From Arthrobacter oryzae (GTDB lineage: Bacteria; Actinomycetota; Actinomycetes; Actinomycetales; Micrococcaceae), in contig NZ_JAUSSM010000010.1 of the NCBI RefSeq assembly GCF_030812315.1, positions 1 through 64,000 on the forward strand: 64,000 nucleotides of DNA, in the 5' to 3' direction. Both the position numbers and the translations under genes were made by a program. The stretch's first letter is position 1; every line of letters starts with the position of its first letter. The notes under the pieces were generated by a model. That model ran no database searches, was not told the origin of the DNA, and worked only from the letters and a program-made list of their open reading frames with translations. Below, piece by piece: positions 10,745 to 49,234 of the stretch.

Positions 10745-10763
10745 GTGTGGACAATGTCCACAC
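10745..10763. promoter_or_regulatory. 19-bp palindrome, copy A left
   Basis: GTGTGGACAATGTCCACAC is a perfect dyad around a single central base, repeated at equivalent places in copies B and C. Such symmetry suggests a dimeric protein-binding site, for example for a recombination-directionality factor or repressor. The binder is unknown. Confidence 0.7.
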
Positions 10764-10855
10764 TTTTCGTCTTGGACTTCCTCGTACAGCCCTCGGACTG
10801 CTTCGGATTCCGCACGTTTTCACGGATTCCCAGTGTGTGCAGGACTAGGAATACA

Positions 10856-10876
10856 GTTCGAGTCCCACCTCGGGCA
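10856..10876 (+). other. tRNA-Leu-like 3' end, copy A (att core)
   Basis: GTTCGAGTCCCACCTCGGGCA matches the 3' T-arm and acceptor strand of a bacterial tRNA-Leu. The 5' T-stem partner is lost (ACAG in place of GTGGG), so no tRNA can fold. Integrases of actinobacterial elements commonly use such tRNA 3' ends as the att core. Confidence 0.6.
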
Positions 10877-10883
10877 CGCATGA

Positions 10884-10904
10884 CCCCTCGTCAGAGGGGT
10901 TTTT
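10884..10904 (+). terminator. tRNA-type terminator, copy A
   Basis: CCCCTCGTCAGAGGGG followed by TTTTT is a short perfect rho-independent terminator. It sits directly after the tRNA-like end, as it would after a real tRNA gene, and is present in all three copies. Confidence 0.8.
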
Positions 10905-11225
10905 GCTCTAATGTGTGGACATTCTGTTCGGTCAGGTCCCTCTTACACGGGCCGCGATTGTGCCTGGCGCCGCGGTCGCCTGTGAAGTTATGTGGGTGAC
11001 GGGTACAGGGTCATGGCTGGTGGGCCCTCCGCCTGCTGGAGTGTAGGGTATTTGCCGTCCTATCTGGCTGTTCGGGTGGCCAGTTGTTGGCCGTCACTCA
11101 TTCATGGCCAGGAGTTGTGGTGACGACATGACGAAGCCGAATTTTCTTTCAGGATCTTCCTCGGGTGGTTGCTTTCTGCGAGCCAGGCCGAGTGCCCTGA
11201 TCGCGTGTTTGTCCGGCCAAAGGGG

Positions 11226-11244
11226 GTGTGGACAGTGTCCACAC
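11226..11244. promoter_or_regulatory. 19-bp palindrome, copy A right
   Basis: GTGTGGACAGTGTCCACAC has the same arms as the left site with a different central base, 481 bp away. An extra half-site, TTGTCCACAG, follows it. Confidence 0.7.
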
Positions 11245-11942
11245 CTTGTCCACAGCCGGCTTTTCGAATCGCATTTGATACCTTCCTCATGATTCTGCCT
11301 TCACTACTTCATGGAGGTCTCTGTTGCAGGTGACATGACCTTGCGGCCCAGACCCTCGGTTTCCTAGGACGTTGGGGGTTCAGCGGGAACGTCTTCGGAG
11401 CTATCTATTGCTGGCGTACGATCCGGCGACAGAGTCCAGGTGTGTGGGATCCGGACTCTTCTTCCTGGTTTGGTTGATCAGTGCGACCTGTCCCTAGTTG
11501 GACGCGCGGTTATCGTCTCTTCCTCCCATGCGTAGGGTCAGCGCCGTTCCCGTTAAGAAAGGCGTACCGAGCAGACTTGCGGCAGACGAGGCGGCTGCAG
11601 CGCCTCTCAGATGCGGGCCCGTCACCGACGGTCATTCCGCTGAACACAGCGACGATCACGTTGGCGGCACCGGCGTCGTGGACGACGTAGCCGGTCGCTG
11701 CGGACACCGGATGTGTCTGTCAGATTTTCGGCGTCGTTCTGATACATGGAGTCACCGCTGGGTTTGAGGGTCCGGAGTGCAACCTGGGGAACCGGGAGCG
11801 ATCCAAGGTTTCGCGAGGAAATAAGCGACGGAGGAGCGCCGAACGAAACTTTGGACCGTGAGCGGCGCATGGCGCCCTGGTTGCGCGAAGGACCCGCCGA
11901 GCGATGATGGGGAGCAGAATGACAAACAGCGATGTTGCTTCT

Positions 11943-13304
11943 GGTGGTTCATGGGGGTGGGGGAGTGGGGCGGCATGACGTCTTGGAAGCCGCTACTCAA
12001 CGGGCTCTGCTGACATGAACGTAGGTGCCCCGAGCGGGAGCTGAACCCGAACTGCTCCGATCCCGCGGGCGCTCCTCGCACAGCATGAGCTCGGTAGGGA
12101 GACCCAGGGGAAGCACGCGTGGGGTGGCTTCGCGATTGCGGTGGTGGAGTGAGGCCATATGGGGCTGTCCGCCTCAGGCTCGCTCAGGTGCTAACAGCGG
12201 GGTCGAGCTGACAAGGCGCGAGCACATGCGCCTGCACAACTGGGGAAGGTGCGTCATGGCTGAAATCAATGCGGTGCTGGCCGGACTGACGGCTGAAGAA
12301 CTCGAGGAGATGTCGAAACTGGGCGGAAGGGGCACCTGGGGCGGCAACTGATCGATGCGCTTGACCGCCCCGCAGGCGGTCCTGATGCCCGCAAAGACCT
12401 CAGCGACCGTTTCCAAACCCAGAGCCAAAGGCTAAAGCAGGCTCCCAAAGGATGGGCCGCCGAAACGGCTGGCATGGACGCTTCTCCCACGGGTTTCCGG
12501 GGAATTTTGGAACGCCGATATTGTGCCACATGTCGCGCCGCCGTCTGGGGCGCGTCAGGTTGCGATCCAAGAGTTTCCTCGACCCATCGTCAGAAAAGAA
12601 GAATCTAACCCTATTCTGACGGCCCTTGGCCACCTGCCTGACGTCAGGTTGCGGTGTGCCTTAGCCACACGCACATGATCGGTGCACCGGGTCTGCCGAC
12701 CTCCACGAGGTTACGCAAGAGGCCGCGTTCGATCTCACCCCACTGAAGGTCCTGAGTTGCGTCACGCCCTCTACGGAAAGATTCTCTGTTGGTGGGTGTA
12801 GCGTGATGGTGGCAGCTCATTGACGAGGGACCAACGGGTGCGTGCACCGGCATCTGCGGGAACTTTGAACCCAAGGTGTTGGATTTGGGGCTTCTGGAAG
12901 TCCAGTTCAGGTTCCGGCCATCGGCTCGTGATGCCACCATCCCTCCCAGGGCGATGATGAAATGGTGCCTGCGGGGAACCTTTCATCGCGGCGATAAATC
13001 ACGCGCTCTTGATCGCAGTTGTTGTAGCTGGCAGGGACGTCGACGAAGGTACTCAGGATGCTCAAAAAAACTTTCATGACTACTGTCTCCCGGTGTGGGC
13101 TCGACGGTCTCCGGTGATCGCCGATGGTTTTACCTTGTTTGCTAGGGATCCGGTTGACTTCCGGACCCAATACAACAAGGCCTGTCTATATGGGCTGGTC
13201 AAGCTGAGCAAAGTACTTACAAACAGAAGGGGCAGGGGGCGGATCCTGACGTGACCGACGTCTCCCTTCGTTAGTTAGATATCAATGAATACCTCAGGTA
13301 AACT
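11943..13304. other. decayed region, no confident gene
   Basis: Fragments of reading frames are visible but none is intact. On the plus strand, 12229-12450 reads MRLHNWGRCVMAEINAVLAG and then needs a frame change to continue as RQLIDALDRPAGGPDARKDL. On the minus strand, 13077-12650 reads MKVFLSILSTFVDVPASYNN and continues only by switching frames. I do not recognise either family. Both are probably relics of genes cut off from the catabolic island. Confidence 0.45.
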
Positions 13305-13328
13305 AACTATCTTGATTCTAAGTTACTT
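13305..13328. promoter_or_regulatory. MarR-type operator, site 1
   Basis: AACTATCTTGATTCTAAGTTACTT contains TATCTTG-ATTC-TAAGTTA (13308-13325), matching the two better sites at 17870 and 33243 with two deviations from symmetry. No intact gene follows on either side, so it is probably an orphaned promoter-operator. Confidence 0.5.
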
Positions 13329-13817
13329 AGCACAAAGCTGCAATGGTTGATTTGCGCCGCTCCGCCTACGCAATTTCAGGAGCTTCGCCGCCCATCTTGT
13401 TTGTGCTGTTCGGAAAGCTGCACCCGTAGTTGCTGCATTGCAGCAGGCTGTGCCACCTGCTCGGTAGCCCGGACCGTTTCGATCCTTGGCAAGCAGTTGC
13501 GGTTGATAGATGAGGAGCCAGGACGTGGTTACCTGTCTCCAGAAACATGTTTTCCTCCATCTGATGCTCACGCGCCACGGGGGCGGCAAGGGTGGCCTTC
13601 ACCCTCGGAACAAACCTCGTTGGGTAACGCTCCGACAATTCGTTCGGCAGCGTAGTGGTTCGCTCGGTAGATCCCGCCTTAGCGGGAAGATGTCGAAGTT
13701 GAACTGACGACTAGTTGGTGGACGACCTTCCCGAAGGCTGAAGGATTGCCGGGACCATCAGGAACATGACGCGCTGAGGCCCCGGCAAGTTGCTCCCCGG
13801 AGTCCGTCTGGTCTACC
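13329..13817. other. no confident gene
   Basis: An ATG at 13342 after the operator opens a 28-codon plus-strand frame (MVDLRRSAYAISGASPPILF) that ends at a TAG. Other short frames continue without agreement. It appears to be the remnant of a gene once controlled from the 13305 operator. Confidence 0.4.
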
Positions 13818-15294
13818 TCAGGTAGGGATCTGCGCGATGCCGATGTATTGAGTAGTGGTGTATTCGGCGATGCCTTCGTTGCCGCCTTCGCGGCCCCGAC
13901 CTGACTACTTGACGCCGCCGAAAGGTGCCGCGGCGTTGGAGATGATGCCGGCATTGAATCCAACCATGCCGAATTCGATCTGTTCGGCCACACGCAGCAG
14001 CTTGTTGAAGTCGCGGCTGTAGAGGTAGGACGCGAGGCCGTATTCGGATGCGTTCGCGAGCCGGATGGCGTCGTCTTCGGTGGTGAATATAGTGACAGGG
14101 GCGACGGGTCCGAAGATTTCCTGGCCCAGAATCGCGGCGTCGTTGGGCACGTTGGCCAGGACAGTGGGCTGGTAGAAGTAACCGGGCCCGGCCACGGGGG
14201 TGCCGCCGGTGACGGCGGTGGCCCCGGCACCGACAGCGGCGGCCACGAGGGCGTGCACGTCATCGCGCGCGCCGGCGTCGATGAGCGGTCCTACCTGGGT
14301 GGCGGGGTCGGTGCCGCGCCCGGTAGCCAGGGATCCCATCGCGGCGGCGAACTTCCGCGTGAACTCCTCGGCGACGGATTCCTGGATGAGGAACCGGTTG
14401 GCGGCGGTGCAGGCTTCGCCCATATTGCGCATCTTCGCGGCCATGGCACCTTCGACTGCCTTGTCTATGTCCGCGTCCTCGAACACGATGAACGGCGCGT
14501 CCCCGCGCAGTTCCATCGAGGTGCGCAGCACGTTTTGCGCCGCATCTGCCATGAGCCGTTTGCCCCGGGGGTGGAGCCGGTGAACGAGACCTTCCGCAGC
14601 CGGGAATCCTTCAGCAGCGGCCCCGAGATCCCGGACGCGGACGAGGAGGAGACTACGTTCAAGACATCGGCGGGCAGGCCGGCGTCGAGCATGGTCTGGG
14701 CGAAGTACTGGGCGGTCAGCGGGGTGAGCTTTGCGGGCTTGAGGACCATGGTGCAGCCAGCGGCGACCGCGTGGGCGACCTTGCGGGTGGCCATCGCCAG
14801 CGGGAAGTTCCACGGCGTGATGAGCAGGCAGGGCCCGACGGGTTTGTGCTGGACCAGGATCTTGTTCTGCCCTCCGGCGTGGTGAGGTAGCGGCCGTAGT
14901 CGCGGACGGTTTCCTCGGAGAACCAGCGCAGGAACTCGGCCCCGTAGGTCACTTCGCCGCGGGACTCGGCCAGGGGTTTGCCCATCTCCAGGGTCATCAG
15001 CAGCGCGAAGTCCTCGGCACGTTCGGTGACCAGGTCAAAGGCCCGGCGCAGGATCTCCGCCCGCACCCTTGGCGCGGTCCGCGCCCAGGACGCCTGCGCG
15101 GCATCTGCTGCGTCGAGGGCGGCGACTGCGTCGTCGCTGGTTGCGGAGGCGAGGGTGACGATGACCTCCCCGGTTGCGGGGTCGTGCACTTCGAACGTGC
15201 CGCCGTCGGACGCCTCTCGCCACTGGCCTCCAATCAGCAGGCCCGTAGGGACCCTATTGAGCAGTGCAGGTTCGGTAAGTGTGGGGACAGTCAA
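13818..15294 (-). pseudogene. gabD: succinate-semialdehyde dehydrogenase-type ALDH, inactivated
   Basis: Joined across three lesions, this is a full-length NAD(P)-dependent aldehyde dehydrogenase of the succinate-semialdehyde type. It begins TVPTLTEPALLNRVPTGLLI, with the catalytic-region motif GEACTAANRF and the C-terminus EGIAEYTTTQYIGIAQIPT. A base is missing near 14875 (after TTPEGR), and another near 14568 (the FTGSTP loop). The Gln codon in GGVKQSG is TAG (about 13903). The suggested start is TTG at 15294, though the frame is open to 15363. It is the last gene after the TPP enzyme, 77 bases away, and would have oxidised an aldehyde product to the acid. Three independent hits make a real pseudogene much likelier than a read error. 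Confidence 0.88.
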
Positions 15295-15370
15295 TTTTTT
15301 CCGTTCGTTGAGCAGCACCGGCGAGGTGGCGAGGATTAATGCCTGCGGCAGGGCAGAGCCCACCAGCGAC

Positions 15371-17047
15371 CTAGTAGGCCTTGCCTCTTTGTTCCACCAC
15401 TAGATGGATCAGTGCAAAGATACGATCTTCGTCGATAGCTTTCAGTGCTGCTTCAATTGCGGCTGGGATGTCAGCATCACGGTCGACTTTGATGCCGAAC
15501 CCGCCGAAGGCTTGCGCCATGAGCGCGAATTCAGGGTTCTTTAGTTGTGTTCCTGAAACCCGGGCAGGGTAGTGGCGTTCCTGGTGGGTGCGAATGGTGC
15601 CGTATTCCTGGTTGTCCATCACGATCACCAAGGGAGTGGCGCCGTACTGCGTTGCGGTGGCCAGCTCTTGGCCGTTCATGAGGAATTCGCCGTCCCCTGC
15701 GATGGTCACGATGCGTCGGCCGGGGTATTCCAGAGACGCCGCGATGGCCGAGGGGACGGAGTATCCCATGGAGCCGTTGCGGGCACTGATCATGGAAGCG
15801 TAGCGCTGGGTGGGGAAGTAGCGGTGTGCCCAGTTGGTGTGCTCACCGGCGCCGAGGGTGACCATGGCGTCGTGGGGGAGGGTTGGGACGAGGTTGGCCA
15901 TTAAGGTGTCCATTCGTGCATGGCCGAGGGTAGGCCTCGCATGGGGGAGCGCGGCGAAGGATTCCTGCTCAGTGCGCATCCGTGTCGTCCAGGCCTTCCA
16001 TTCGTCCTTGACCGGGAGTTCGATCTTGGCCAGGTCGCGGATGAACACGTCGGGCTTGGCAACGATCTGGTAAGAGACTGGACCTGACCTGCCTCGGAGC
16101 GATGGGTCGATCGTGACAAGAAAGTTCTTTTTGGTCCAGTCCTGACGGCACAGGAAGCCGTCCGTGATGACGTCACCCGGGACAGTGCCGACAAAGATCA
16201 GCAGGTCTGTCTCTTCGAGCAGGTCATAAGTGGGACGCGGGCGACCGTAACCGATAGGACCGACGTAGGACGAGGAACCGAACGGAACAGTCCCTTGGGT
16301 CCGCCATTCAGCCGCGGCTGGAATATGGTGCTTTTCCAGCCAGGCGGTGAGCTGGTCAGCACCCTCCTGGGTCCAGTCATTTCCACCGGTGACGAACAGT
16401 GGCTTCGTCGATGCTGACAGGGCCGAGGCTAGTGCGTCGGAGTCCACCGTGGTCATGCCTCCGGTGGCCACAGGGATTGGCGGGTGAAGTTCGGCAGGGA
16501 TCTGTTGCCTGATGACGTCCTCGGGCAGCCCGATAACGACGGGGCCGGGCCGGCCATTCATCGCTGAGAACAGGGCCTCGGCGACGATCTCGGAAGCGCG
16601 ATCTGCGTGATCCAGAACCATGACGCGCTTAGCTCCGGTGTCGAACCAGGCTTTGATGTCGAATTCCTGGAAAGCTTCACGGTCCCGGTGCGCGAAAGGA
16701 ATCAGGCCCACGAACAGCACCATCGGTGTTGAATCCTGCCACGCCGTGTGCAGTCCGACGTGGGCGTTGGCCGCACCCGGGCCGCGGGTAACCATCGCGA
16801 TGCCAGGCATCTGGTGAATTTTGCCGTCAGCTTCGGCCATGTAGGTGGCCCCGCCCTCGTGGCGGCAGACGATGGTCTCGATCGTCGAGTCGTGAAGCCC
16901 GTCCAGTACATCCAGGAAGCTCTCGCCGGGGACAACGTGTGCCCGCTTGATGCCGTGTGCGACAAGCGAATCAACAATGACGTGTCCTGCTGATTTGTGG
17001 GTTTGCCCGTCCTGGCTGACTGGGAGGGTTTCCACTGCCGCGCTCAC
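15371..17047 (-). CDS. TPP-dependent acetolactate-synthase-like enzyme
   Basis: This 558-residue enzyme has the three-domain fold of the acetolactate synthase/benzoylformate decarboxylase superfamily. Glu64 (in CRHEGGATYMAE) is the residue that activates thiamine diphosphate. The central domain carries a degenerate nucleotide-binding region. The cofactor motif runs from about residue 451 (GDGEFLMNGQELATATQYG) to MDN. It probably decarboxylates or ligates a 2-oxo acid made in the pathway. No regulatory small subunit follows, so branched-chain biosynthesis is unlikely. It lies downstream of the cupin gene and upstream of the dead ALDH. It is one of two such enzymes in this island; the substrate is unknown. 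Confidence 0.88.
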   Translation of the reverse strand: MSAAVETLPVSQDGQTHKSAGHVIVDSLVAHGIKRAHVVPGESFLDVLDGLHDSTIETIVCRHEGGATYMAEADGKIHQMPGIAMVTRGPGAANAHVGLHTAWQDSTPMVLFVGLIPFAHRDREAFQEFDIKAWFDTGAKRVMVLDHADRASEIVAEALFSAMNGRPGPVVIGLPEDVIRQQIPAELHPPIPVATGGMTTVDSDALASALSASTKPLFVTGGNDWTQEGADQLTAWLEKHHIPAAAEWRTQGTVPFGSSSYVGPIGYGRPRPTYDLLEETDLLIFVGTVPGDVITDGFLCRQDWTKKNFLVTIDPSLRGRSGPVSYQIVAKPDVFIRDLAKIELPVKDEWKAWTTRMRTEQESFAALPHARPTLGHARMDTLMANLVPTLPHDAMVTLGAGEHTNWAHRYFPTQRYASMISARNGSMGYSVPSAIAASLEYPGRRIVTIAGDGEFLMNGQELATATQYGATPLVIVMDNQEYGTIRTHQERHYPARVSGTQLKNPEFALMAQAFGGFGIKVDRDADIPAAIEAALKAIDEDRIFALIHLVVEQRGKAY

Positions 17048-17221
17048 TTACTCACCGCCTCGTTCGGGAGGACGGCGGTTGCCCGCCCTGGGTGAGGTGC
17101 TGGTTGGCATGGGGGAAGTGGATTGGCCAATGTTGTCGACTCCATCGTCATGCAGCTGATGCTGCTCAATTTCACAAGCGAAAATATTGTCTTCTGCTGA
17201 TACCTGACAGATGCACCAAGA

Positions 17222-17255
17222 AGCGCGGGTACCAGCTCCAGCTGGTACCCGCGCT
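17222..17255 (-). terminator. perfect 16-bp hairpin between cupin and TPP genes
   Basis: AGCGCGGGTACCAGCT and AGCTGGTACCCGCGCT form a perfect stem with a 2-base loop, 15 bases after the cupin stop. There is no strong T-run, so it may be a transcript stabiliser or attenuator that lets the cupin be expressed more than the TPP gene. Confidence 0.6.
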
Positions 17256-17270
17256 CTCGGAGGAACATGT

Positions 17271-17792
17271 CTAGCGTGTAACTCCGTGCATTTCGGAGGT
17301 CGGCGGGTAGAAGGGAATTTCCGGCTTCTTGGCGCCAATGATTACGCAGATCAGCGCGTCCTCTTCGCTGACAGTACGAAGGCTGCGCGGAACGCCTGCA
17401 GGAACACGAATCAGGTCGCGGTAGCCCAAAACGCGGCTGGCCTTCTTGGTGCCGTCCTCGACATCGTGGACGCTGAACTCCACCTGTCCCTCGAGGACGA
17501 AGAATACCTCTTCGACGTCAGGGTGAGTGTGCTCGGGTCCTACGCAGCCGGCGGGCAGAACCATGTTGGAGAACGTGAAGTGTTCGGCCTGAAGGATGTT
17601 GTTGTCGTCCGAGTGGTCCCCGGTAGCTCCGGAGCCGATGTAGCGGACCTGGCCGCGCCGGAATTTGTCTCCCATTTTCGTCTGGAACTTCAGAGTGTCA
17701 AAGTCAACGACGCGGCTCTCACGGGACGCGATAGATGAATCGATGAGCTCTTCAAGATCTGTTGTAGTCGGTGCACTTACGGTTTCGCTCAT
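17271..17792 (-). CDS. cupin-domain protein
   Basis: This is a 173-residue single-domain cupin. The start is ATG 17792, since GAGAGGT lies about 8 bases upstream; an in-frame extension to 17840 lacks this. The metal-binding motif is PEHTHPDVEEVFFVLEGQ, supplying two His and a Glu, with the second cupin motif near GYRDLIRVPAGVPRSL. Cupins in catabolic clusters act as small dioxygenases, isomerases or sensors; which applies here cannot be told. It is the first gene of a leftward operon with the TPP enzyme and dead ALDH. Its promoter is overlapped by the MarR-type operator at 17870-17887. Confidence 0.85.
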   Translation of the reverse strand: MSETVSAPTTTDLEELIDSSIASRESRVVDFDTLKFQTKMGDKFRRGQVRYIGSGATGDHSDDNNILQAEHFTFSNMVLPAGCVGPEHTHPDVEEVFFVLEGQVEFSVHDVEDGTKKASRVLGYRDLIRVPAGVPRSLRTVSEEDALICVIIGAKKPEIPFYPPTSEMHGVTR

Positions 17793-17869
17793 TGTTAAAC
17801 CTCTCGGACTGGGGCGATGTAAACCAAGAACTGGCAGCAAAGCGAAGGAGCAACTCCCTCAACTCTAAC

Positions 17870-17898
17870 TATCTTAACACTAAGGTAGATTGGGTCAA
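17870..17898 (-). promoter_or_regulatory. cupin promoter with MarR-type operator (site 2)
   Basis: Read leftward, TTGACC (17893-17898) and AAGATA (17870-17875) are spaced by 17 bases, a good sigma-70-type promoter. The operator TATCTTA-ACAC-TAAGGTA (17870-17887) covers the -10 box and most of the spacer, ideal for repression by the adjacent MarR protein. Confidence 0.65.
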
Positions 17899-17933
17899 GT
17901 AACAAGACCTTAAGTGAATCAACCAAGAGTTAA

Positions 17934-17962
17934 TTGATTGCATGAAGGCTCAGTGTTAAGAT
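17934..17962 (+). promoter_or_regulatory. marR promoter
   Basis: TTGATT (17934-17939) and TAAGAT (17957-17962) with a 17-base spacer lie just upstream of the MarR start. AAAGGACAGGGCC supplies the ribosome-binding site. The divergent arrangement with the cupin promoter implies shared control. Confidence 0.5.
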
Positions 17963-17990
17963 TCACTATCTACTTCTAAAGGACAGGGCC

Positions 17991-18536
17991 ATGGCTGACG
18001 AAACAACCGAAGCTGATGCTGTTGACCGCATTCTCGCGGATTGGCTGCGTGAACGGCCGGACTTGGATGCGAGCTCGATTGGCGTCCTCGGGCGGCTTTT
18101 GCGGCTGGCCAATCAGATCCGCGCCGTCGAAAGTTCCTACTTTGATGAGTATGGGTTGACACTTGCGTCCTTTGACGTCCTAGCTAACCTGCGCCGCTCT
18201 GGCCCACCTCACCGGAAGACCGCCGGGGAGCTCGCGACCTCGTCCATGCTCACGACCGGTGGTATTACTTTCCGGTTGGACAGGATGGAGGAGCAAAACC
18301 TCATCGAGAGAGTTCGCACCCGCGAAGACCGCCGGGTTGTTTACGCCCAGCTCACCGATCATGGCAAGGCTGTTATCGATGAGGCATTCGGTAAGCATTT
18401 GGACAAACAACGTCAGATGTTGAGCGGTCTGACGCCCTCAGAACTCGATCAACTCGCAGCGTTGCTTAAGAAGGCAGAAGCCTCGGTGGTCGCATTTGAT
18501 GTCAATGCGCTGGAAGCGGTTGGCCCAAACTCCTGA
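17991..18536 (+). CDS. MarR-family transcriptional regulator
   Basis: This is a 181-residue winged-helix regulator. The HTH runs at about residues 75-105 (TAGELATSSMLTTGGITFRL) and the wing contains REDRRVVYAQLTDHG, the diagnostic MarR beta-hairpin. Long N- and C-terminal helices form the dimer and ligand pocket. MarR proteins in catabolic islands usually repress until an aromatic acid or CoA ester binds. It is divergent from the cupin gene, with the operator in between. The same operator recurs before the flavin reductase, so it is the likely master repressor of the island. A strong hairpin terminator follows. Confidence 0.9.
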   Translation: MADETTEADAVDRILADWLRERPDLDASSIGVLGRLLRLANQIRAVESSYFDEYGLTLASFDVLANLRRSGPPHRKTAGELATSSMLTTGGITFRLDRMEEQNLIERVRTREDRRVVYAQLTDHGKAVIDEAFGKHLDKQRQMLSGLTPSELDQLAALLKKAEASVVAFDVNALEAVGPNS

Positions 18537-18578
18537 AGCTCCGTCTTCTCCGTTGCGTCAGGGTTTGGCGGGCGCATC

Positions 18579-18641
18579 CTTGGCCTTCGCGGGTGCCGCG
18601 TCTGTCTAGAGAGGGCCCAAACAACGCGAAGGCCAAGTTTT
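18579..18641 (+). terminator. terminator after marR
   Basis: CTTGGCCTTCGCG (18579-18591) pairs perfectly with CGCGAAGGCCAAG (18625-18637), followed by TTTTC. The loop is long (33 bases). It sits between the convergent marR and AspDH-like genes and may serve both. Confidence 0.7.
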
Positions 18642-18745
18642 CACTTGGCATGAGGTTCAGCAGAGGCTCACCTGCCGGCACTTCTGGAACGCTCACTGAC
18701 CGGAAGGATCCCCGCGGAGGCTGCAGTTCGAACCCGCTGCTGCGC

Positions 18746-19546
18746 TCATATCAGTCCGCCCCGGCCGCCGATAATGGATTCCAGGGATCGTAGTACGGCG
18801 AACGGCACGACGCCGCTTGTCCTCGGATTGTCCTCAGAGGGCTTGTTGCGGATCTCGAACCGGTATTCCCCGATGTTTCCAGAAGCTTCAATGACGTGGC
18901 TGGTGAGTTCCGCTGCGGGGTCTGCCCTTACTCTGACCGTCACAGCGTCCCAGTTGTTAACGGCGATAGCAACGGCGGCGCCGGCGTTTAGGGATTTAGG
19001 GAACAACAGCGCGGCTTCAGCGGCCGATCCTTCATAGACGTCCAGTGGCCCTGGAGTATTGCGTATCTCCTCCAACAAAGCCTCGTTCATCCAGGGCTGG
19101 AGAAGGGAGCCCGGCAACTTCGTCGTCGTAATCGTGACTTTGTCATAGCCTTCGGCACGGGCGCCTGAGGACAAAAGGTCAAGGCCGCCAACTGCGCCGG
19201 ATGTCAGGAAGAGCCGGCCTGGCCCGGCGGCGCGAAGCTGTTTTGAGAATTCTCTATCTGCCAGGGCGCCAATAGAAGTCACGAGCAGGTCAACACCTGC
19301 CCGGAGCACATCCTCAGCGTGCTCGACGAGTGCTTCCTGACCTGCACATTCGACCAGTAGGTCGCAGCGTTCCAGGGCCTCCGCCAAGTCCATACGTTTC
19401 ACCGGAGTATTACTGAGCGGGCTTCGGGAGATAATTCCTTCCAGGACAGCCCCTGCGACCCGTCCCTTAGTAATCCCAGCGACGACGGGCACTCCAATGG
19501 CGCCGTAACCGATAACTCCGACACGGCAGGTGCGTGCTGACTTCAT
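18746..19546 (-). CDS. L-aspartate dehydrogenase-like NAD(P) oxidoreductase
   Basis: This is a 266-residue protein of the NadX/aspartate dehydrogenase fold. The N-terminal Rossmann motif is VGVIGYGAIGVPVVAGI. The C-terminal domain includes FPKSLNAGAAVAIAVNNWD, the conserved AspDH block. Aspartate dehydrogenases interconvert amino and imino acids with NAD(P). ATG 19546 is chosen because GAAGGACATC precedes it; the frame upstream is non-coding. Lying at the end of an operon with two RidA (imine deaminase) genes, it probably handles an amino or imino intermediate. A role in NAD synthesis is unlikely without nadA or nadC beside it. Confidence 0.85.
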   Translation of the reverse strand: MKSARTCRVGVIGYGAIGVPVVAGITKGRVAGAVLEGIISRSPLSNTPVKRMDLAEALERCDLLVECAGQEALVEHAEDVLRAGVDLLVTSIGALADREFSKQLRAAGPGRLFLTSGAVGGLDLLSSGARAEGYDKVTITTTKLPGSLLQPWMNEALLEEIRNTPGPLDVYEGSAAEAALLFPKSLNAGAAVAIAVNNWDAVTVRVRADPAAELTSHVIEASGNIGEYRFEIRNKPSEDNPRTSGVVPFAVLRSLESIIGGRGGLI

Positions 19547-19720
19547 GATGTCCTTCGAGTCTTGATTGGGTAGTTGGATCCGCTCGAGCGTGTGGTTGAC
19601 GAGGCGTAGTGAGGAGAATGTCCTCGTCACGCTCGAAGGCACTTGTGTTCGCTCGAACACCACTGAACTACTGGGTGATTTCACGCGCTGTTCAGCGTGT
19701 GGTGGGAGTGAGGTTGTTTC

Positions 19721-19763
19721 CCTCCGAAAGCCGGATTGCCGACGACAATCCGGCTTTCGGAGG
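19721..19763. terminator. perfect 18-bp hairpin between RidA and AspDH genes
   Basis: CCTCCGAAAGCCGGATTG and its exact complement flank a 7-base loop. There is no T-run on either strand, so it may act as an RNA stabiliser or processing site. Nearby are further dyads, including TGTTCGCTCGAACA and GACGAGG/CCTCGTC, making this 260-bp gap unusually structured. Confidence 0.6.
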
Positions 19764-41355: not shown

Positions 41356-41359
41356 CGCG

Positions 41360-44128
41360 TCACGCCTGCGTCGGCCTCTGGATGTCTACCGACAGCCGAG
41401 GAACGGGCTCGTGCGGATCTTCCAGCCGTGGTGGCTGCGCCGCCAAACGAGCCTCCAAGCGCTTCGCCTCGGCCGTTGCCTGCCGTACTTGCGCTGTGCG
41501 AAGCTCGATGTCCAGTCGCCGCGATTCTTCAATGAAATCCTCGCAGGCGCTGCAACGACCGAGCCTGGCCTCGATCGTTAGTCCGGGGGACGGCAACTGC
41601 ATCGTGTCTTCCCCCGCGGTGACGTCTATTGCCGTTTTGAAATCGTCCAAGAACTCTTGGCCGCTCTGTATGACCTCGTGATTCAGAGGCACTAGCAGCT
41701 TCGATCCGATCTGACTCACAACACGAGGCTGGAAAAAGCCGGGCTCGAAGCTCGTCAGCAAGCCTGCCATGGACTGTTCAATGTGATCGAGCTGTTCCTG
41801 CGGTGGAAGCGCTAGAAAAAGTGCGAACGAGTAGTGCTCGGCGTGTTCCTGCAAGTGCAGTTCGAGCACCTCGGCCCGTTCCTTAGCTAGGGCGTAGTCG
41901 CGGATCGGGAAGTCGTTCTCAATGCGGTCTTCGTCGTTCTGTTGGTTTTGATTCTTCTGTTGCTCCTGAATCAACTTCTTTGTATCAGCGCTGATCCCCC
42001 CGCTTTTTACTCCGTCCAGAAAAGCCCGATAAACCTTTGTGAACTGCTCAATTTGCGTGCCGAGGCCGGCGTCCTCCGCCTCCAGCAGGCCCACCCTCAG
42101 AATCTCCGTCCACCACCATCCCCAGTCTGCGGCTTGCTTGACGTGGTAAGGCCCATGCGGTCCCCACATTGCCGGACGCAGAAGGCCCTGCTTGACTTCC
42201 TGGGGCTCGAGGTTCAGCTGTGACGGTTTCGGCATAGCCGTCGCCTCCGGCATGACCGCGGCAAGCCGCGGGCCCCACTCCCGGATCTGGGGAGGCGTTT
42301 TCTCGGCCGCGAGCTCGGTCAGTGTAAGCGTGAGCTGTGAGAAGGAACGTAGGAGCAGTTGCTGTGCCAGCCACCGTTTGCCAGCGTCGAGATCATGAGG
42401 CAATACCTGGCCCTTCTTCGTCCCCAGGGTGGGAACGTCTTCCCCCAGGCAGGTTAGGGCAGTGTCTAACTTCGTGGCATTCCCTTCGTCAAGCAACTTG
42501 CGTGCGGTGGCTTGGAGATTGGCCAAGTAACCGTTGGCTGCTCTTTCTTCGTCCGAGATCCCTGTTTGCGGAGTGGGGGAGTCGTTAGGTGCGGCCGGAA
42601 GCGGATCTTTCCGGTCCTGGCGGCGAACTGCGATCTCTGCTTGCTCAATCTCACGAGCACGCAGGAACCGGATGGCTTCAAAGCCAGGGCTTAGTCCACG
42701 GTCCAGGAGTGCGTCGCGTAACGCGGCTTCGTGCTGGCGAATGAACTGCTCGGAGAAGGCATGCTCGGCGACCGGGTTCGGAATCATCGCACAGAAACGC
42801 ATTGCGTCTTCGTTGAACTCGGTCCGGATCTTATAGTGGGTGAGGATCTCGAAGTAGTCCAAGTTCAAGGTGTGGCACATGTTCGGGTTGCGGACCTTGC
42901 GGGTGATCCGTTGCTCGCTGCCACTCTCGGTGGTCTCGGTGACTTTGGTCGATCGCTGTACTTTCACCCGAGCAGATGACTTTCTCACTCCCTCCCGGAT
43001 CGCCTTGGTGGTCGTGCGTGCAACGCTGTCCGCGTTTGTCTTGTCGCGCGCGTCCACGTTAGCGCCGATTTTGATCTTGACCGGGCCAGGGTTGTACTGA
43101 ATATCAACGGAACCACCGCCCTTTAGCTCGAACTCTTCCTTCTTGGTCAGCTCGCGAAGCACCTCGGTACTGTCTTGTGTTTTTTCTTCCTCCTCGGCCG
43201 ACATCTCGCTATCCGTGGAGGAGGATTGCTCAAGCGTCTTCTTACGCCGGTCCCAAGTGAAGAGCTCGATGGTTACCTCCTCCTGAGGTGCGAGAGCCAG
43301 CGACTGCAGGAGACGACCGCGTGAGAAGCCTTCGAGCGTCCACGACTGCTTCCACTCGAAGTACAGGGCGAGGATTACGCCGCTCAGGTCGGGCGGACTG
43401 AGGAGTCGCGTGGGGCTGTAGCTGTTGTTGGTGACCGTACCCTTGGACGGCTCAATCGTCATCGTCGGCCCGGCGGCCACCCTGCCGGGGGCGCCTTCGA
43501 CCGTGGCAACGCTGGCATTTAGTGCCCCTCCTGCCGACGGCTGGGTCTTCTTGAGGTGGACGGTTATCTCGTAGTCTTCGTAGACGACACCTACCTCCCC
43601 ATCCTGGGCGAGAGCTGTTGCCTGAGCAGGCGTCATGGCAAACATGATCCTCGTGGCACCCGACAACGCCCACGGGCCAACCAGATATGACGCCAAATCA
43701 GCCTCGTCGACCCAGTGAGAGACCTTGATCAAAACTTCCCTGCCACCGCCGTTGCCGCCATCCATGCGCCCGCGAGTATTCATGAGACTGGCAAGGCCTG
43801 TGTCCACGGCGGGCGATGACCGGGAGTCGGATGTGAACGAGCTGGCTTCCGCTGCCTTGAGCCCCAGAAGCTCACCGAGGGAGATCCGCTCCTGACCGGC
43901 GAGGCTCAGGGTGCCATCGGCGCGGGCGCCGCCGCCGGTGGCTCCTGCGCCCTTCTTTCCGCCCCCACTGTCGAGTTTTTTGCCGACTTCAACAGGGAGC
44001 TCACGGTCGCCGATGACGAGCTTTACCGGGCAGAACTGGCCAAAGCGAAACTCCTGGAGCAACTCCCCAGCGGGCAGCGACCGTCCGCAAGCGCCATCGA
44101 TGAATAATTCAGGCTCGGCCCCTGCCAT
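41360..44128 (-). CDS. very large unknown protein, second operon gene
   Basis: This is a 922-residue protein. The N-terminal 250 residues are Gly/Ser-rich with beta-like runs. Next comes a block with SLALAPQEEVTIELFTWDRR followed by a highly charged linker rich in Glu, Ser and Thr (EEEEKTQDSTEVLRELTKKE). A conserved-looking joint, RKVRNPNMCHTLNLDYFEIL, follows. The C-terminal 400 residues are helical and contain an RCSAC pair and a long coiled coil at the end. It faintly recalls large structural or surface proteins of contractile injection or spore-coat type loci, but I cannot assign it. Its ATG overlaps the stop of the previous gene. Confidence 0.72.
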   Translation of the reverse strand: MAGAEPELFIDGACGRSLPAGELLQEFRFGQFCPVKLVIGDRELPVEVGKKLDSGGGKKGAGATGGGARADGTLSLAGQERISLGELLGLKAAEASSFTSDSRSSPAVDTGLASLMNTRGRMDGGNGGGREVLIKVSHWVDEADLASYLVGPWALSGATRIMFAMTPAQATALAQDGEVGVVYEDYEITVHLKKTQPSAGGALNASVATVEGAPGRVAAGPTMTIEPSKGTVTNNSYSPTRLLSPPDLSGVILALYFEWKQSWTLEGFSRGRLLQSLALAPQEEVTIELFTWDRRKKTLEQSSSTDSEMSAEEEEKTQDSTEVLRELTKKEEFELKGGGSVDIQYNPGPVKIKIGANVDARDKTNADSVARTTTKAIREGVRKSSARVKVQRSTKVTETTESGSEQRITRKVRNPNMCHTLNLDYFEILTHYKIRTEFNEDAMRFCAMIPNPVAEHAFSEQFIRQHEAALRDALLDRGLSPGFEAIRFLRAREIEQAEIAVRRQDRKDPLPAAPNDSPTPQTGISDEERAANGYLANLQATARKLLDEGNATKLDTALTCLGEDVPTLGTKKGQVLPHDLDAGKRWLAQQLLLRSFSQLTLTLTELAAEKTPPQIREWGPRLAAVMPEATAMPKPSQLNLEPQEVKQGLLRPAMWGPHGPYHVKQAADWGWWWTEILRVGLLEAEDAGLGTQIEQFTKVYRAFLDGVKSGGISADTKKLIQEQQKNQNQQNDEDRIENDFPIRDYALAKERAEVLELHLQEHAEHYSFALFLALPPQEQLDHIEQSMAGLLTSFEPGFFQPRVVSQIGSKLLVPLNHEVIQSGQEFLDDFKTAIDVTAGEDTMQLPSPGLTIEARLGRCSACEDFIEESRRLDIELRTAQVRQATAEAKRLEARLAAQPPRLEDPHEPVPRLSVDIQRPTQA

Positions 44129-45192
44129 CAGCTGTTTCCACCCCGTCTACCGGTCAGACTGCCGGGCTCATGCCAGGCCTTCAGCGCTGCGTTCCAGGTG
44201 TAGCACCGCGTGATTAGCTGAGCGAGCTCGTCATCGCCTTGGCTCTCGTCGAACAACATAACCGCGGTGATAGCCTCACCACCGCGGTGGGCGACGCGCT
44301 GAAGGGCGCTAAACCCCTCCCTGGTCAGCCGCCGCTCCGGTGCCAGCTCGAGCGCCTTGGATATCTCCTCAACCAGCTTGTCGCCATTTGAGTCGGTCCG
44401 GTACGGCCACTGCTCCTCGGGCCTGCCTGTAAGACCGAAGACGGCAATCACGTCTTTGTCGCGGAGAATAGGGTAGGAATGATCGTCAGCTATGCTCTGC
44501 AATGATGACGAACGGCTCCACGTCACGGAAGCACCCGAAACTCCAGCGAGGTAATCACGGAAGGGCCGATGCTCCGTCCGGACCCGTTCGCGAAGCATCG
44601 GGATACCTGTCGCCTGACTCCACTCCGCAAACGTAGATGCGGCCGCAAGTAGCCCGTCCCGAAGTCGTACAAAATCGCTCGTCGCCCCGGGCGAGTCCGA
44701 CGGACCAAACACCGGTTCATACATCGCTTTGCGCTGAACATACGACGGAAAATTCTCATCGTAACCGACGCGTGCCCGCAGACGGGCGAGCCCTAGAGTC
44801 GTGGGGGCTTGTAAGTCCACGTACAGGTGCGGACGAAACAAGAAGTCGCCCGCAACTTGGCAGGCCAATTCGATGAGCGGGTCGAGTCTGGCATAAGTGT
44901 AGAGCCCAGCCACCTCAAATCCACCGCCTGTTACCGTGTCGAAGGAGGCTCGGTCCGAGATGTCCAGGGTTTTTTTGTCTTTCAGGGACAATTCGGCTGC
45001 GGGAGCCGCTGGCACAGGGGGCCTATTAACCATTTCAGTGACCCTACTCTCAACTGGGCAACCAGTTTGGGTTGCCGCCCCGAATTTTGCACTGACCCCA
45101 TTTCCCAAGGCGGTCCGCACCGGGGGGTCACCACTCTGGGTCGTTCGCCACCAAAAGGCCATCGCATCTCCCAATGCGCTGTCGTTGACCAC
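44128..45192 (-). CDS. unknown protein, first gene of the four-gene operon
   Basis: This is a 354-residue frame (GTG start at 45192). An internal ATG at 45033 (MVNRPPVPAAPAAELS) is an alternative start giving 301 residues. The body is a mixed alpha/beta protein with LYTYARLDPLIELACQVAGD and DKDVIAVFGLTGRPEEQWPY. No signal peptide, membrane helix or known motif is visible. The stop overlaps the start of the 922-residue gene (TGATG). As the operon's first gene it should carry the promoter upstream, which I could not identify. Confidence 0.68.
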   Translation of the reverse strand: MVNDSALGDAMAFWWRTTQSGDPPVRTALGNGVSAKFGAATQTGCPVESRVTEMVNRPPVPAAPAAELSLKDKKTLDISDRASFDTVTGGGFEVAGLYTYARLDPLIELACQVAGDFLFRPHLYVDLQAPTTLGLARLRARVGYDENFPSYVQRKAMYEPVFGPSDSPGATSDFVRLRDGLLAAASTFAEWSQATGIPMLRERVRTEHRPFRDYLAGVSGASVTWSRSSSLQSIADDHSYPILRDKDVIAVFGLTGRPEEQWPYRTDSNGDKLVEEISKALELAPERRLTREGFSALQRVAHRGGEAITAVMLFDESQGDDELAQLITRCYTWNAALKAWHEPGSLTGRRGGNS

Positions 45193-46004
45193 AGTAGCCA
45201 GAGTTCGTTCGCTGAAACGGACGCTACGCAGGCTGCCATTACCGTAGCGTTATTGCCATCGACCAGGCCCCGGGCACGGAGTGCAAAAGCGGACGACTTC
45301 GGCCTGGGGTGGTCGTGAGCCCGTGTGGGTGGTCGGGAGCGATCCCTCCGGCTGCGGCATCGAGGACTCGGCTCCGACCAGTGCGGCTGCGATGGTGGGA
45401 CGCGTCAGGAGATTCCGCTCTATTCGCATGTCACAGCAAAGCTGCTGACGGTGAAATCGCGATGCCTTTGGCATCGAGCATGTGGTTCTCGATGTGGGCG
45501 GTCTTGGCCAGAAGGCCCTGATGCGTGTCTTTTCCGGGCCTGGTGCGCCCGGCCCGCAGCCCTTTTCGCGCATGATGCCCCCACGGTCAGTGCAGGGACC
45601 CTCACCGCGCGTCCAGCGGCAGGGTCAGCTGATCGCGGCCGGCTCAGCCGAGGCTCGGGAGAGCTTCAACGCCCGGAAAAGCCACACCACAAGAAGTGGT
45701 TGGGGCGATCTATTTACCCACAGGTCTGAGGGTGCCTGAGATGGGGGCCACGGCCAACGGACAGCCGGCTGACCACTCCGGCAGAGCTTTAGAACGATTG
45801 TCAGACTCCGGAGTGGACTATCTCTTTAGAACCAGCGTGTGACGGTTGGTACTCCTGAGCCTCAAGGGTGCTACTGACCACGCATATTCCTCCTCGGGAA
45901 ACTGCCAGATGACGCAGGCCATTGACAGCCCGCGCCTGACTGCGGAAAGTCATTCCTACATCTGTTCCAGCTCTTCAGACCCACGCTGGATTTTGGGGGT
46001 ACCC
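45193..46004. other. no confident gene
   Basis: About 800 bases between the unknown operon and the SARP gene. Overlapping frames at 45300-45740 on both strands are GC-driven and match nothing I know. A dyad-rich stretch near 45780-45840 may include the SARP promoter, but no clear boxes were found. Confidence 0.4.
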
Positions 46005-46736
46005 ATGGGCAACGACGGCTATGGTTTTCAGTTAAGCCTGCTTCAATCGTGGCAACTTCTCCGCGGCACCGACATCGTACACGTTGCAGCACGGCAACAA
46101 CGACTCATCACTGCGCTGGCCATCAACGGGCCCCGTCCCCGAGGTTTTCTCGTCGGTTTATTGTGGCCTGAGTGTCGCGAGCCCAGGGCACTCGAAAGCT
46201 TGCGCGTTAGCATCCATCTCATCTCGCGGCAGGTCCCAGGCCTGCTCATCAATGGTGGGGCGGTGCTGTCGCTAAGCGAACTGGTCGACGTCGACCTCCA
46301 CCGAGTCCGCGCCCAGATCCGGGAACTGAGCCGAGCTGGACTTAATGGAAACGTGGCCTCATGCCTGCACCAGCTACGGGACGCCGACTTGCTCCCGGGC
46401 TGGTACGACGACTGGGTGCTCTTCGAACAGAGCAGATTGCGGCAGGACCGGCTTCACGCATTTCAGATCATCGCTCGCGAGTCGCTCAAGCGATGTGACT
46501 GTGACTCCGCCGTGGCTGCGTCGGAGGCAGCACTGGAAATCGAACCGCTCTATGAAAGTGCCCTTGGACTTCTCATTCAGGCTCAAAGGCAGCAGGGCAA
46601 CTATGCTGCGGCGGTCCAGGCCTTCGAGAAATACCAAGCGAAGCTGGATGAAGACATGGGGCTTGTGCCTTCGGACGCCATTCGGCGCTTCATAGCGGAC
46701 ATTTCGTCACAACCAGGCGCCAAGAGAACGACCTAG
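46005..46736 (+). CDS. SARP-type transcriptional activator (wHTH + BTAD)
   Basis: This is a 243-residue regulator. The start is ATG 46005, preceded by GGGGG; the frame is open back to 45846. An OmpR-like winged-helix domain (VAARQQRLITALAINGPRPR, then GLLWPE) occupies about residues 1-110. The bacterial transcriptional activator domain (LLPGWYDDWVLFEQSRLRQ, then AVQAFEKYQAKLDEDMGL) fills the rest. SARP proteins activate secondary-metabolite or surface-structure operons in actinobacteria. It is divergent from the unknown four-gene operon, which is its most likely target. Confidence 0.88.
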   Translation: MGNDGYGFQLSLLQSWQLLRGTDIVHVAARQQRLITALAINGPRPRGFLVGLLWPECREPRALESLRVSIHLISRQVPGLLINGGAVLSLSELVDVDLHRVRAQIRELSRAGLNGNVASCLHQLRDADLLPGWYDDWVLFEQSRLRQDRLHAFQIIARESLKRCDCDSAVAASEAALEIEPLYESALGLLIQAQRQQGNYAAAVQAFEKYQAKLDEDMGLVPSDAIRRFIADISSQPGAKRTT

Positions 46737-46984
46737 ACCTTGTCTGGGGGGTTGGTTTGGCCAGACAGCCACTGGTGCACCACGCTTAGCACCTTGTCCG
46801 GATCCGCGGTGGAGACAGTTCTGGGTTCACCGCTTGGGTCTTCGCCGTACGTAATCCTGGCACGAAGACTTGGCGTCTGGTCTGGTTCGTGCCATGTGCG
46901 GATGACTAGCGTGCTCATGGACGGCATCGCCGTGTCTGATTCGTCTTCATGGGAGATTCCTGGCGGACGATCATCGTTGGTCAT
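46733..46984 (-). CDS. small hypothetical protein
   Basis: This is an 83-residue acidic protein (MPSMSTLVIRTWHEPDQTPS, then VSTADPDKVLSVVHQWLSG) with a beta-rich core. It converges on the SARP gene with a 4-base overlap of stops. Similar short proteins are often found beside SARP or LuxR regulators in actinobacteria, but no function is known. Confidence 0.6.
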   Translation of the reverse strand: MTNDDRPPGISHEDESDTAMPSMSTLVIRTWHEPDQTPSLRARITYGEDPSGEPRTVSTADPDKVLSVVHQWLSGQTNPPDKV

Positions 46985-47392
46985 GCTATTTCACCTTACT
47001 TTGAGCGCATCCGCCGTGGTTTTTTAGCCGAGAGCCGCTGTGGACGTCCCGCCAACAATTGGACTCGGCAACCGGACGTCCCCGGCTGCTTTGATCCTTC
47101 TGCACATGAATCAGGAATCAGATTACGTTTACTAAAGGTTTGCTCAAGATCGTCGGCGCTGGCTGACTCAATGTGAGCGTACGTTGCGGCCCTGCGTATG
47201 GACGCACTGATGGTAGCGCGTCCGTAACGCCTCAAGTGCTCAAATGGTTGAGGTCTCAGACGCTGTTCCGATGGTGCTCAACAGGGTGATGCCACACGCT
47301 TTCGACATGTCGGTGCCACTCGCGAGTATTTAGCGATCACCCTTCTCCAAGCGGGTGGTTTGCATCATCGACACCGGGTCGGGGAGGAAGTC
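46985..47392. other. intergenic region, nothing recognised
   Basis: About 400 bases. It should hold divergent promoters for the flanking small genes. Only short frames are present (the 79-residue minus-strand frame at 46996-47235 lacks a start context). No repeat or RNA was seen. Confidence 0.5.
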
Positions 47393-47871
47393 GTGAAGGA
47401 TCAAGAGGCTCGTCAGAGACTGACCGAGAATATTGAGCTGCGACAGTCAGCGATCAAGCTTCTTCTGCGACAGGACGGCCCTCGTCGGAACAGGCTGGCC
47501 ACGACAAGCGTGGTTGGTAGCGCGTTGGCTGCGGGCTTTACAGCGGGCCCCGCATTTGGCGGGCCCAAGTTCGCTGCGGGGGTCCAAGGAGCACTGACGT
47601 TGGAACAAAGTTCCATAGTTTGGCAGGTGCTCTGTTTGGCAGCGATGCTGATGTCCGTCGTCGCTGCTGTGTCGACCAACTTGGCTAACTCGCACTCAGT
47701 GGCCGCAAAGGTCAGTGCAGCAGAGGCCTGCAATGCCCAGTTCGAGGGTTGCAAACGGCGTTGAACTTCGGACGCCTCCCTTTGGAAGATGCCATTCAGC
47801 TCTTTCAGCAATACACGACCCAAGTAGCGTTCGTAGACGATGCGGAAGACAAGACTACTTCACCGCGGTGA
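47393..47871 (+). pseudogene. two-TM membrane protein, frameshifted
   Basis: From GTG 47393 (GGGGAGG 5 bases upstream) a helical N-terminus is followed by two hydrophobic segments (TTSVVGSALAAGFTAGPAFG and IVWQVLCLAAMLMSVVAAVS). The frame ends early at 47764. One base more in the GGG run near 47748 would continue it as EGLQTALNFGRLPLEDAIQL and VAFVDDAEDKTTSPR to 47871, clearly the true C-terminus. It recalls SLATT/DUF4231-like small membrane proteins, which can be part of conflict systems, but the assignment is weak. Confidence 0.65.
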
Positions 47872-48028
47872 CGAACGTTAGGTCGGAACCGGCAGTAGAG
47901 ACAAGGGTTTTCCGCAACCGGTCTGCCCTACTTCGGTGGATACTTTGCAGCAGGGTATCTGCCAGGGCTGCCAAGAGCCGCGCACATTCGAAGTCGAGTG
48001 CCGGCGGTCGGGAACGGAGGAAATTGAT

Positions 48029-49234
48029 GTGTGGACAATGTCCACACTTTGGGCTTCGGACTGGGCCGTACTGGTGGCGGACTGGGCCGGATTCGGGATG
48101 TTTCCGGAGGACCCCAGTCGTTGCAGGGGCGGGAATGCAGTTCGAGTCCCACCTCGGGCACGCATAACCCCTCGTCAGAGGGGTTTTTGCTTTAATGTGT
48201 GGACATTCATTCTCGACGCGTCCCCTGACGCTGTTCGCGGTCTGGGCCTGGCGCCGCGGTCGCCTATTCGGTTGTGTGGGTGGCGGGGTCAGGCCCCTGG
48301 CTGATGGGCCCTCCGCTTGCTGGAATCTGGGGTATGTGCCGTCCTATCTGGCAGTTCCGATGGCCGGTTGTTGGCCCTCACTAGTTCATGGCCACGAGTT
48401 GTGCTGACGACATGACCAAGCCGAATTGTCTTCGAGGATCTTCCTCGGATAGCTGCTTGCTGCGAGCCAGACAGAGGACGCTCATGGCGTGTCTGTCCGG
48501 CCAAAGGGGGTGTGCAAATTGTGCACGCGTTTGTGCACGGGGTGGCTTTCGACCCGCATTTTGATCCCTTTCTCATGGTTCTGCCCTCACCACTTCATGC
48601 AGGTCTCTGTTGCAGGCGACATGACTTTGCGGCCCCGGATCGTAGGTTTCGTTGGACGTTCCGGGTTCAGCGGGAACGTCTTTGGGGTCATCTGTGGCTG
48701 GCGTACGATCCGTCACAGAGTCCAGGTGTGTGGGACCGGGGCTGTTGTTTCCGGGGCCGTTGCTGGTTTGGTTGATCAGTGCGACCTGTCCATAGTTGGA
48801 CGCCGCGGCTATCGTCTTCCTCCCATGCATAGGGTCAGGGCCGTTCCCGCTAAGAAAGGCGTCCCGAGCAAACTTGCGGTAGACGAGGCGGCTGCCGCGC
48901 CTCTCAGAGACGGGCACGTCACCGACGGTCATTCCGCTGAACACAGCGACGATCACGTTGGCGGCACTGGCGTCGTGGACGAGGTAGTCGGCCGCTGGGG
49001 CACCGGATGTGTCTGTCAGATTTGTGCGTCGTTCTGATAGCGGAGTCACCGCTGGGTTTGAGGGTCCGGAGGGCACTTGGGGAACCGGGAGCGGTCCAAA
49101 GTTTCGCGAGGAAATAAGAGACGGAGGAGCGCCGAACGAAACTTTGGATCGTGAGCGGCGCGTAGCGCCCTGGTTGCGTGGAGGAGCTGCCCAGCGATGA
49201 TGGGGATCAGAATGACAAACAGCGCAGTTGCTTA
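48029..49234 (+). repeat. non-coding module, copy C (att-like)
   Basis: The 1.2-kb partner of copy A, colinear from end to end. Palindrome GTGTGGACAATGTCCACAC is at 48029-48047, the tRNA-like end at 48140-48160, the terminator at 48168-48188, the half-site at 48197, and the second dyad GTGTGCAAATTGTGCACGC at 48510-48528. The tail (48530-49234) aligns with 11245-11942. Substitutions are spread evenly and change any frame, so it is conserved as DNA. It directly precedes the P450 island. Confidence 0.85.
48140..48160 (+). other. tRNA-Leu-like 3' end, copy C (att core)
   Basis: GTTCGAGTCCCACCTCGGGCA, identical in all three copies, is followed 7 bases later by the CCCCTCGTCAGAGGGG terminator. The upstream T-stem half (ATGCAG) does not pair. 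Confidence 0.6.

Follow-up and report, generated by a model that had tools for sequence, protein, structure and literature searches.

Tandem accretion of integrative elements that includes members without an integrase is already known from Dehalococcoides, whose ssrA islands are the closest described case among the literature found. They lie in tandem downstream of an RNA gene, are bounded by a repeat of that gene's 3' end (20 bp), carry reductive dehalogenase cargo, and comprise 16 islands with and 15 without an integration module, the latter suggested to be cis-mobilizable (PMC3146451, in the passages compared). The stretch considered here, the first 64 kb ("the window") of a 205-kb contig (C10) in the draft genome of Arthrobacter oryzae (5.15 Mb, 38 contigs), carries three copies of a module that are very probably internal junctions of a chromosomal tandem array at the transfer RNA (tRNA) gene tRNA-Leu(CAA), with integrase-less blocks that would be moved via a code in their arms. 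An earlier sequence-only reading of the window knew of no described element with such an architecture, a claim contradicted by the similar layout of the ssrA islands. These islands differ in using a serine recombinase (a CcrB homologue), in having all repeats at most 100 kb from ssrA and, in the passages compared, in showing no arm-site code, whereas the Arthrobacter array has a tyrosine integrase, sits at tRNA-Leu, spans up to 548 kb among the genomes with positions listed and contains conserved integrase-less arms.

Other systems share parts of this layout. The cis-mobilizable elements (CIMEs) of Streptococcus salivarius likewise have attachment (att) sites without an integrase, occur in tandem with integrative and conjugative elements (ICEs) or integrative and mobilizable elements (IMEs), and have tRNA genes among their targets, but the part of the source that concerns us describes them as decayed elements always farthest from the target gene (PMC7563491); in Arthrobacter, four of the 11 genomes read (G042, G107, G123, G141) have an integrase-less right arm, type A, immediately at the tRNA gene, and a genome holds up to ten core copies. 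The attP of cluster K mycobacteriophages has its core in a transfer-messenger RNA or tRNA gene and a stem-loop terminator between core and arm site, and arm-site variation is proposed there to follow integrase residues 17 and 19; as presented in the relevant section, however, this concerns a few phages, each with its own integrase (PMC3203893), in contrast to the 51 integrases and four classes found here, which also occur in integrase-less elements. Islander reports tandem islands at tRNA genes, counted only if every island has its own integrase, with 4 tandems of at least three among 3919 islands (PMC4383910, in the portion used); arrays such as that of Arthrobacter would be missed under this rule, and pipelines demanding one integrase per island overlook this class of tandem islands. 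The Arthrobacter array is not described in the literature searched, judged by the titles and abstract openings listed, and as far as that literature shows its scale, the conserved integrase-less arm and a four-class arm-site code common to integrases and integrase-less blocks are new.

The sequence-only reading had described three modules, each with a dyad, a tRNA-Leu-like 3' end of 21 nt, a terminator, a half-site and a second dyad about 480 bp on. The modules lie where it placed them, in a repeat larger than it described. Dyads occur at 10745, 11226, 34081, 34559 and 48029 (five when up to 3 mismatches are allowed, where shuffled sequence would give 0.04); the second dyad is as described at 11226 and 34559 and degenerate in the third copy (48510, GTGTGCAAATTGTGCACGC). 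Each of the three copies has the terminator stem CCCCTCGTCAGAGGGG and, at +36/+37, a half-site TGTNNACA, and the tRNA-like core, GTTCGAGTCCCACCTCGGGCAC, is 22 nt rather than 21 and exact in each. Every base of the core agrees with the 3' end of tRNA-Leu(CAA), which lies at C8:207327-207409; the intact tRNA is on another contig, whose tRNA locus C10 presumably joins in this genome. The count of three holds for the window, not for the contig: at up to one mismatch C10 has seven cores (10856, 34192, 48140, 68821, 105296, 126169 and 171630), and, the tRNA gene apart, C18 has two more while C22 and C28 have a single one each, all of them on the plus strand as deposited. An additional copy on C28 has an insertion within the core, and C15 and C23 hold degenerate module matches on the minus strand. 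Resemblance to the window module does not extend beyond the last core base at the cores 126169 and 171630, where the right arms are different ones; the copy at 151118 consists of the right half only, starting just past the core.

The module is present in 190 of 198 genomes of the same genus. The 43 near-complete ones contain 240 core copies (at most one mismatch, tRNA gene counted; median 6, maximum 10), all on one strand in each genome, although the count for several genomes includes one tRNA-like sequence with a single mismatch that lies 0.2-0.7 Mb away. Cores are spread over more than 360 kb in eight of the 27 genomes with positions listed (first to last array core, by subtraction: G066 548 kb, G050 492, G128 437, G141 and G042 414, G115 400, G098 387, G107 364); short arrays occur too (G069 48 kb, G044 12 kb), and G174 has the tRNA core alone. 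We read 74 junctions in 11 genomes, ten chosen ones and the window's own. The tRNA-Leu gene is the first core in 11 of 11 arrays, a left (P) arm with a dyad near -133 precedes 57 of 63 later cores, the right (P') arms are of type A in 42 cases, of a type termed 'nat' in 25 and of other kinds in 7, and neighbouring cores are 2.6-191 kb apart. The intact tRNA gene stands at one end of the arrays and its 3' end recurs as a direct repeat at each boundary. The arrays explain where Arthrobacter genomes can keep a large part of their gene content that is specific to the species.

A comparison of 106 junctions, in which the core is identical by selection and the pairs are not independent, locates the breaks: where homology is confined to the left, 443 of 588 pairs lose it within 0-2 nt after the core, where it is confined to the right it begins at -22/-21 in 353 of 400, and alignments cross the core in 1641 junction pairs and lie clear of it in 637. 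Arms appear to have been exchanged exactly at the repeat, and these alignments indicate plainly that they recombine at the core. The earlier suggestion of tandem integrative elements whose integrase is lost or lies outside is supported by the same-strand cores, the breaks at both core edges, the tRNA-Leu start, the preceding P arms and an integrase beside the tRNA. Among five Phage_integrase matches in the genome none falls in the window, and C10 has only a C-terminal fragment at 200124; on C8 a tyrosine integrase, with a Phage_integrase match above cut-offs, starts about 88 bp past tRNA-Leu(CAA). It is followed by matches above cut-offs to NlpC/P60, TrbL/VirB6, SCO6880-family, ArdC-like and MobF relaxase proteins, and by a VirB4-like ATPase match below its cut-offs only; the right end of the element is not on C8. 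Judged by its integrase, relaxase and type IV secretion genes, the block beside the tRNA is an ICE. A cognate site-specific integrase occurs in the arrays more widely: matches of at least 351 residues at no less than 72% identity are found in 18 of the 43 near-complete genomes, and in all 11 of these with core positions listed the integrase comes after the first core of the array. At E 1e-60 the integrase family reaches 25 of 149 genomes sampled across the family and 13 of 32 genera. Integrative elements have accreted in tandem at this locus; an ICE sits at the tRNA, and many members have no integrase. The window blocks themselves have att sites at both ends and no integrase, as CIMEs do.

The arms carry what looks like an address. 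A dyad consists of two inverted TGT-NN-ACA sites nine bp apart, and in 119 of 133 dyads the NN of one half is the reverse complement of that of the other (39% expected if the halves were drawn independently); these 119 comprise 61 of type GC, 46 GG, 11 TG and one GT. Two TGTNNACA sites also stand before 47 of 51 distinct core-adjacent integrases (one site in three, none in one), their NN agree in 47 of 47, and the integrase site classes are TG in 23, GC in 13, GT in 8 and GG in 6. Residues 5, 6 and 19 of the integrase (N-terminus M1 A2 S3 x4 x5 x6 R7) track the site class in 50 of 50, scored with residue sets derived from the same sequences: W5, E/A6, R19 for GC; R/K5, K/R6, C19 for GG; R5, K/I6, L/V/M19 for TG; and A/S5, T6, R19 for GT. 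A tree built from residues 66-377 requires at least 12 class changes (23.8 when shuffled), and no position among 66-370 tells the GT class from TG or the GG class from GC (compared with always choosing the majority class, the best gains are 3 of 8 and 3 of 6). N-terminal domains of such integrases bind arm-type sites. For lambda integrase this is stated in PMC3203893, in the section used. A structural model, whose numbering is one higher than that of the sequence, places residues 5, 6 and 19 in strands of a three-strand sheet that is accompanied by a helix in the N-terminal part; its mean confidence (predicted local distance difference test, pLDDT) is 57.6, and with 78-87 in the first five ten-residue blocks only the N-terminal part is reliable. 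Whole-model Foldseek matches to Tn1549 and lambda integrase involve mostly low-confidence model, and the best of them lack or scarcely cover the N-terminal part (the Tn1549 chains begin at residue 82). Most likely, as far as sequence comparison can tell, the dyads are integrase arm-type sites with NN as a four-class address code, which makes specific the symmetric protein-binding sites proposed earlier and offers an explicit, testable code between residues 5, 6, 19 and the arm-site dinucleotide.

The N-terminal domain together with its two arm sites has seemingly been swapped as one cassette between similar integrases (L038:7494-7690, homologues L082-L153), the sisters L151 (GT) and L152 (TG) being an example.

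In the mechanism that we propose, the attP of an excised element would consist of P arm, 22-bp core and P' arm. Integration at the tRNA 3' end or at a resident core would leave P' tRNA-proximal and P at the far end of the element, so that stacked elements would join as P-core-P' in the same orientation throughout. The integrase is a tyrosine recombinase encoded by the ICE (with its conjugation genes and MobF relaxase) next to the tRNA; its N-terminal domain would bind the arm-type sites, and NN would fix the specificity. Most stacked blocks, those of the window included, lack an integrase, and those of the window bear the conserved type A right arm; given NN-specific arm binding, they may be moved by matching integrases in trans or along with the neighbouring ICE, and they look like elements that could borrow a neighbour's integrase with palindromes as docking sites. 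The class at the P' end of a block and that of the next P arm agree in 24 of 41 cases (14.5 expected, p = 0.001; 19 of 60 blocks with missing or mixed classes left out) and, for 'nat' arms, in 11 of 17 (p < 0.0001), a pattern that fits elements bounded P'...P with some mixing. In an alignment of 42 P arms chosen for having a dyad, conservation does not go beyond the stretch from dyad to core. Between the two, most P arms carry a pair of conserved direct repeats near CGGAYYGGGYCGKAYT, to which a directionality factor might bind. A bolder extension, tentative and perhaps wrong, is that type A blocks form a genus-wide lineage of integrase parasites, whose doubled inverted arm sites serve as an address for the four classes of passing ICEs. 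The arrays would then log visiting integrases, and swapping of the N-terminal domain and arm sites as one cassette would force the satellites to keep changing their address.

The alternative that survives best, which we nonetheless consider rather unlikely, is that the array is a fossil of old ICE passengers whose integrase genes have decayed and whose arms are kept by descent, only the tRNA-adjacent ICE being mobile. It would account for the integrase relics after two internal cores in G107 and beside a core in G180, for further integrase fragments in G185, G026, G042 and G064, for 17 'nat' right arms without integrase, and for the mismatch between the class of the resident integrase and that of the array dyads. 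Type A, however, is a conserved arm type of its own: in an alignment of another set of 42 copies conservation holds over about 380 nt and is weaker out to about 590, no integrase sequence lies within 2 kb of any of the 42 type A right arms of the array survey, and in the four genomes named above the arm stands right at the tRNA gene. Moreover, the dyads remain self-complementary across class changes, which decay would not keep.

It is less probable still, and in our view improbable, that the locus is an integron-like platform, its array captured and rearranged on the spot by a single resident integrase. In the arrays read a full-length integrase lies past the first core in 6 of 11 and nowhere else (6 of 6), as such a platform would have it. 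Yet the integrase of the window genome adjoins ICE genes, with backbone pieces 84-90% identical in G020, a search at E 1e-20 gives no integrase match in 18 of the 43 near-complete genomes, and resident and array classes do not correspond. Against integron integrase models the scores are 41.8 of 265 and 27.9 of 435 bits, well short of the cut-offs, and the distances between neighbouring cores speak against small gene cassettes. A resident integrase acting as master of its array is likewise unsupported by the class matches.

That the dyads are hairpins, in RNA or in single-stranded DNA like integron attC sites, and owe their conservation to base pairing and not to a sequence-specific protein, is very improbable. 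The NN covariation within dyads would be expected from pairing, and the P and P' classes of one junction are weakly related at best (14 of 30 agree, 10.4 expected, p = 0.09). However, the same NN classes recur as paired single sites before integrase genes, where they track the integrase residues, and a third site beside the P' dyad, outside the palindrome, agrees with the dyad class in 28 of 34 cases (13.3 expected); on these two grounds the hairpin reading was dropped. No Rfam family of structured RNA matched the modules at E up to 1.

Dispersal by homologous recombination or an insertion sequence (IS), without site-specific integration, is hardly credible: many copies of moderate identity and IS genes within block 2 might suggest it, but the single strand per genome, the tRNA-Leu start and the breaks at both core edges speak against it. 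The sequence-only reading had named dispersed repeats unrelated to island edges, a known IS or a plasmid origin as findings that would overturn it, and none of these was found: the repeats are chromosomal in complete genomes, the plasmid collection PLSDB gave one weak match outside the arms, and no recombinase was found at the modules.

Several observations weigh against an array of integrase-less blocks moved by an arm code. No circular form, empty site or excision was seen, and tandem arrays with a shared integrase are described as inherently unstable (PMC3218068, in the part consulted), which is at odds with arrays this long. The class of the resident integrase matches the array dyad classes in 12 of 38 cases, 12.4 being expected, and the 18 genomes without an integrase match have already been mentioned. 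For type A arms taken alone the block ends agree in 13 of 24, which is not significant (p = 0.15), and their half-site near +37 is GG in 36 of 44 regardless of the dyad, with whose class it agrees in 17 of 44 (p = 0.16). Well-supported branches of the integrase tree give only two (GT/TG) and one (GG/GC) independent class switches, all of which agree with the residues; the homology-break pairs and dyads are not independent samples. Finally, comparison of the stretches fetched from five genomes did not reveal where the arrays end on the right: no gene in them is common to four of the five, and genes common to genome pairs mostly lie within about 60 kb of polA. Upstream of the tRNA are putative gltB/gltD-like, pyruvate kinase and response-regulator genes.

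Table 1. Junctions, blocks and repeats of the window; coordinates are window positions unless a contig is given.
Feature	Position	Strand	Details
Junction 1 P arm	10745..10877	+	two TGTNNACA sites 10746-10753, 10755-10762 (dyad, class GG), then tRNA-Leu core
Junction 1 core, 22 bp	10856..10877	+	tRNA-Leu(CAA) 3' end; probable exchange region
Junction 1 type A (integrase-less) P' arm	10878..11470	+	end approximate, conservation ends near +590
Junction 1 P' arm parts	terminator stem 10884-10899; half-site 10914-10921; dyad 11226-11244; third site 11247-11254	+	dyad class GG
Block 1, 23.3 kb	10878..34213	+	catabolic cargo; both ends class GG
Junction 2 P arm	34081..34213	+	dyad 34081-34099 (GG); direct repeats 34109-34123, 34130-34144; core 34192-34213
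Junction 2 type A P' arm	34214..34800	+	end approximate
Junction 2 P' arm parts	terminator stem 34221-34236; half-site 34251-34258; dyad 34559-34577	+	half-site TG; dyad mixed GG/TG
Block 2, 13.9 kb	34214..48161	+	IS21-type transposase pair, BTAD-domain protein inside
Junction 3 P arm	48029..48161	+	dyad 48029-48047 (GG); direct repeats 48057-48071, 48078-48092; core 48140-48161
Junction 3 type A P' arm	48162..48750	+	end approximate
Junction 3 P' arm parts	terminator stem 48168-48183; half-site 48198-48205; dyad 48510-48528	+	dyad degenerate, class GC
Block 3	48162..64000	+	continues to next junction, contig position 68842, P dyad there class GC
CGGAYYGGGYCGKAYT-like direct repeats	10790-10830, 34109-34144, 48057-48092		
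235-bp repeat	49000-49234, 11705-11940, C10:172034, C8:254300, 274877, 281809, C15:18087		

The cargo of the window was annotated from 20 selected open reading frames. That of block 1 includes an aldehyde dehydrogenase, a thiamine pyrophosphate (TPP) enzyme, a Rieske oxygenase and a flavin reductase. A 6.2-kb piece of it recurs in eight other genomes with an identity of 83-96%, further genomes have it at 69-75%, and only G133 of the eight shows a core beside the cargo in the stretches fetched (12-60 kb); the catabolic cluster at 16949-32450 has no core in the fetched stretches of seven of the eight genomes that hold it at 83-94% identity. Movement of the whole block as a unit between genomes is thus unsupported, and since the cargo mostly lacks an adjoining core it may also move independently. 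Within block 2, 37216-38663 contains an IstB gene and the C-terminal part of an IS21-type transposase.

Left of the first junction, 9375-9490 weakly matches the Actinobacteria small RNA Ms_IGR-7 (31.4 of 45 bits, below the gathering score). A separate 235-bp repeat occurs at seven places in the genome, on contigs C8, C10 and C15 only, with 84-95% identity to the window copy. It folds into a long hairpin around CCAAAGTTTCG...CGAAACTTTGG and is perhaps a palindromic mobile repeat.

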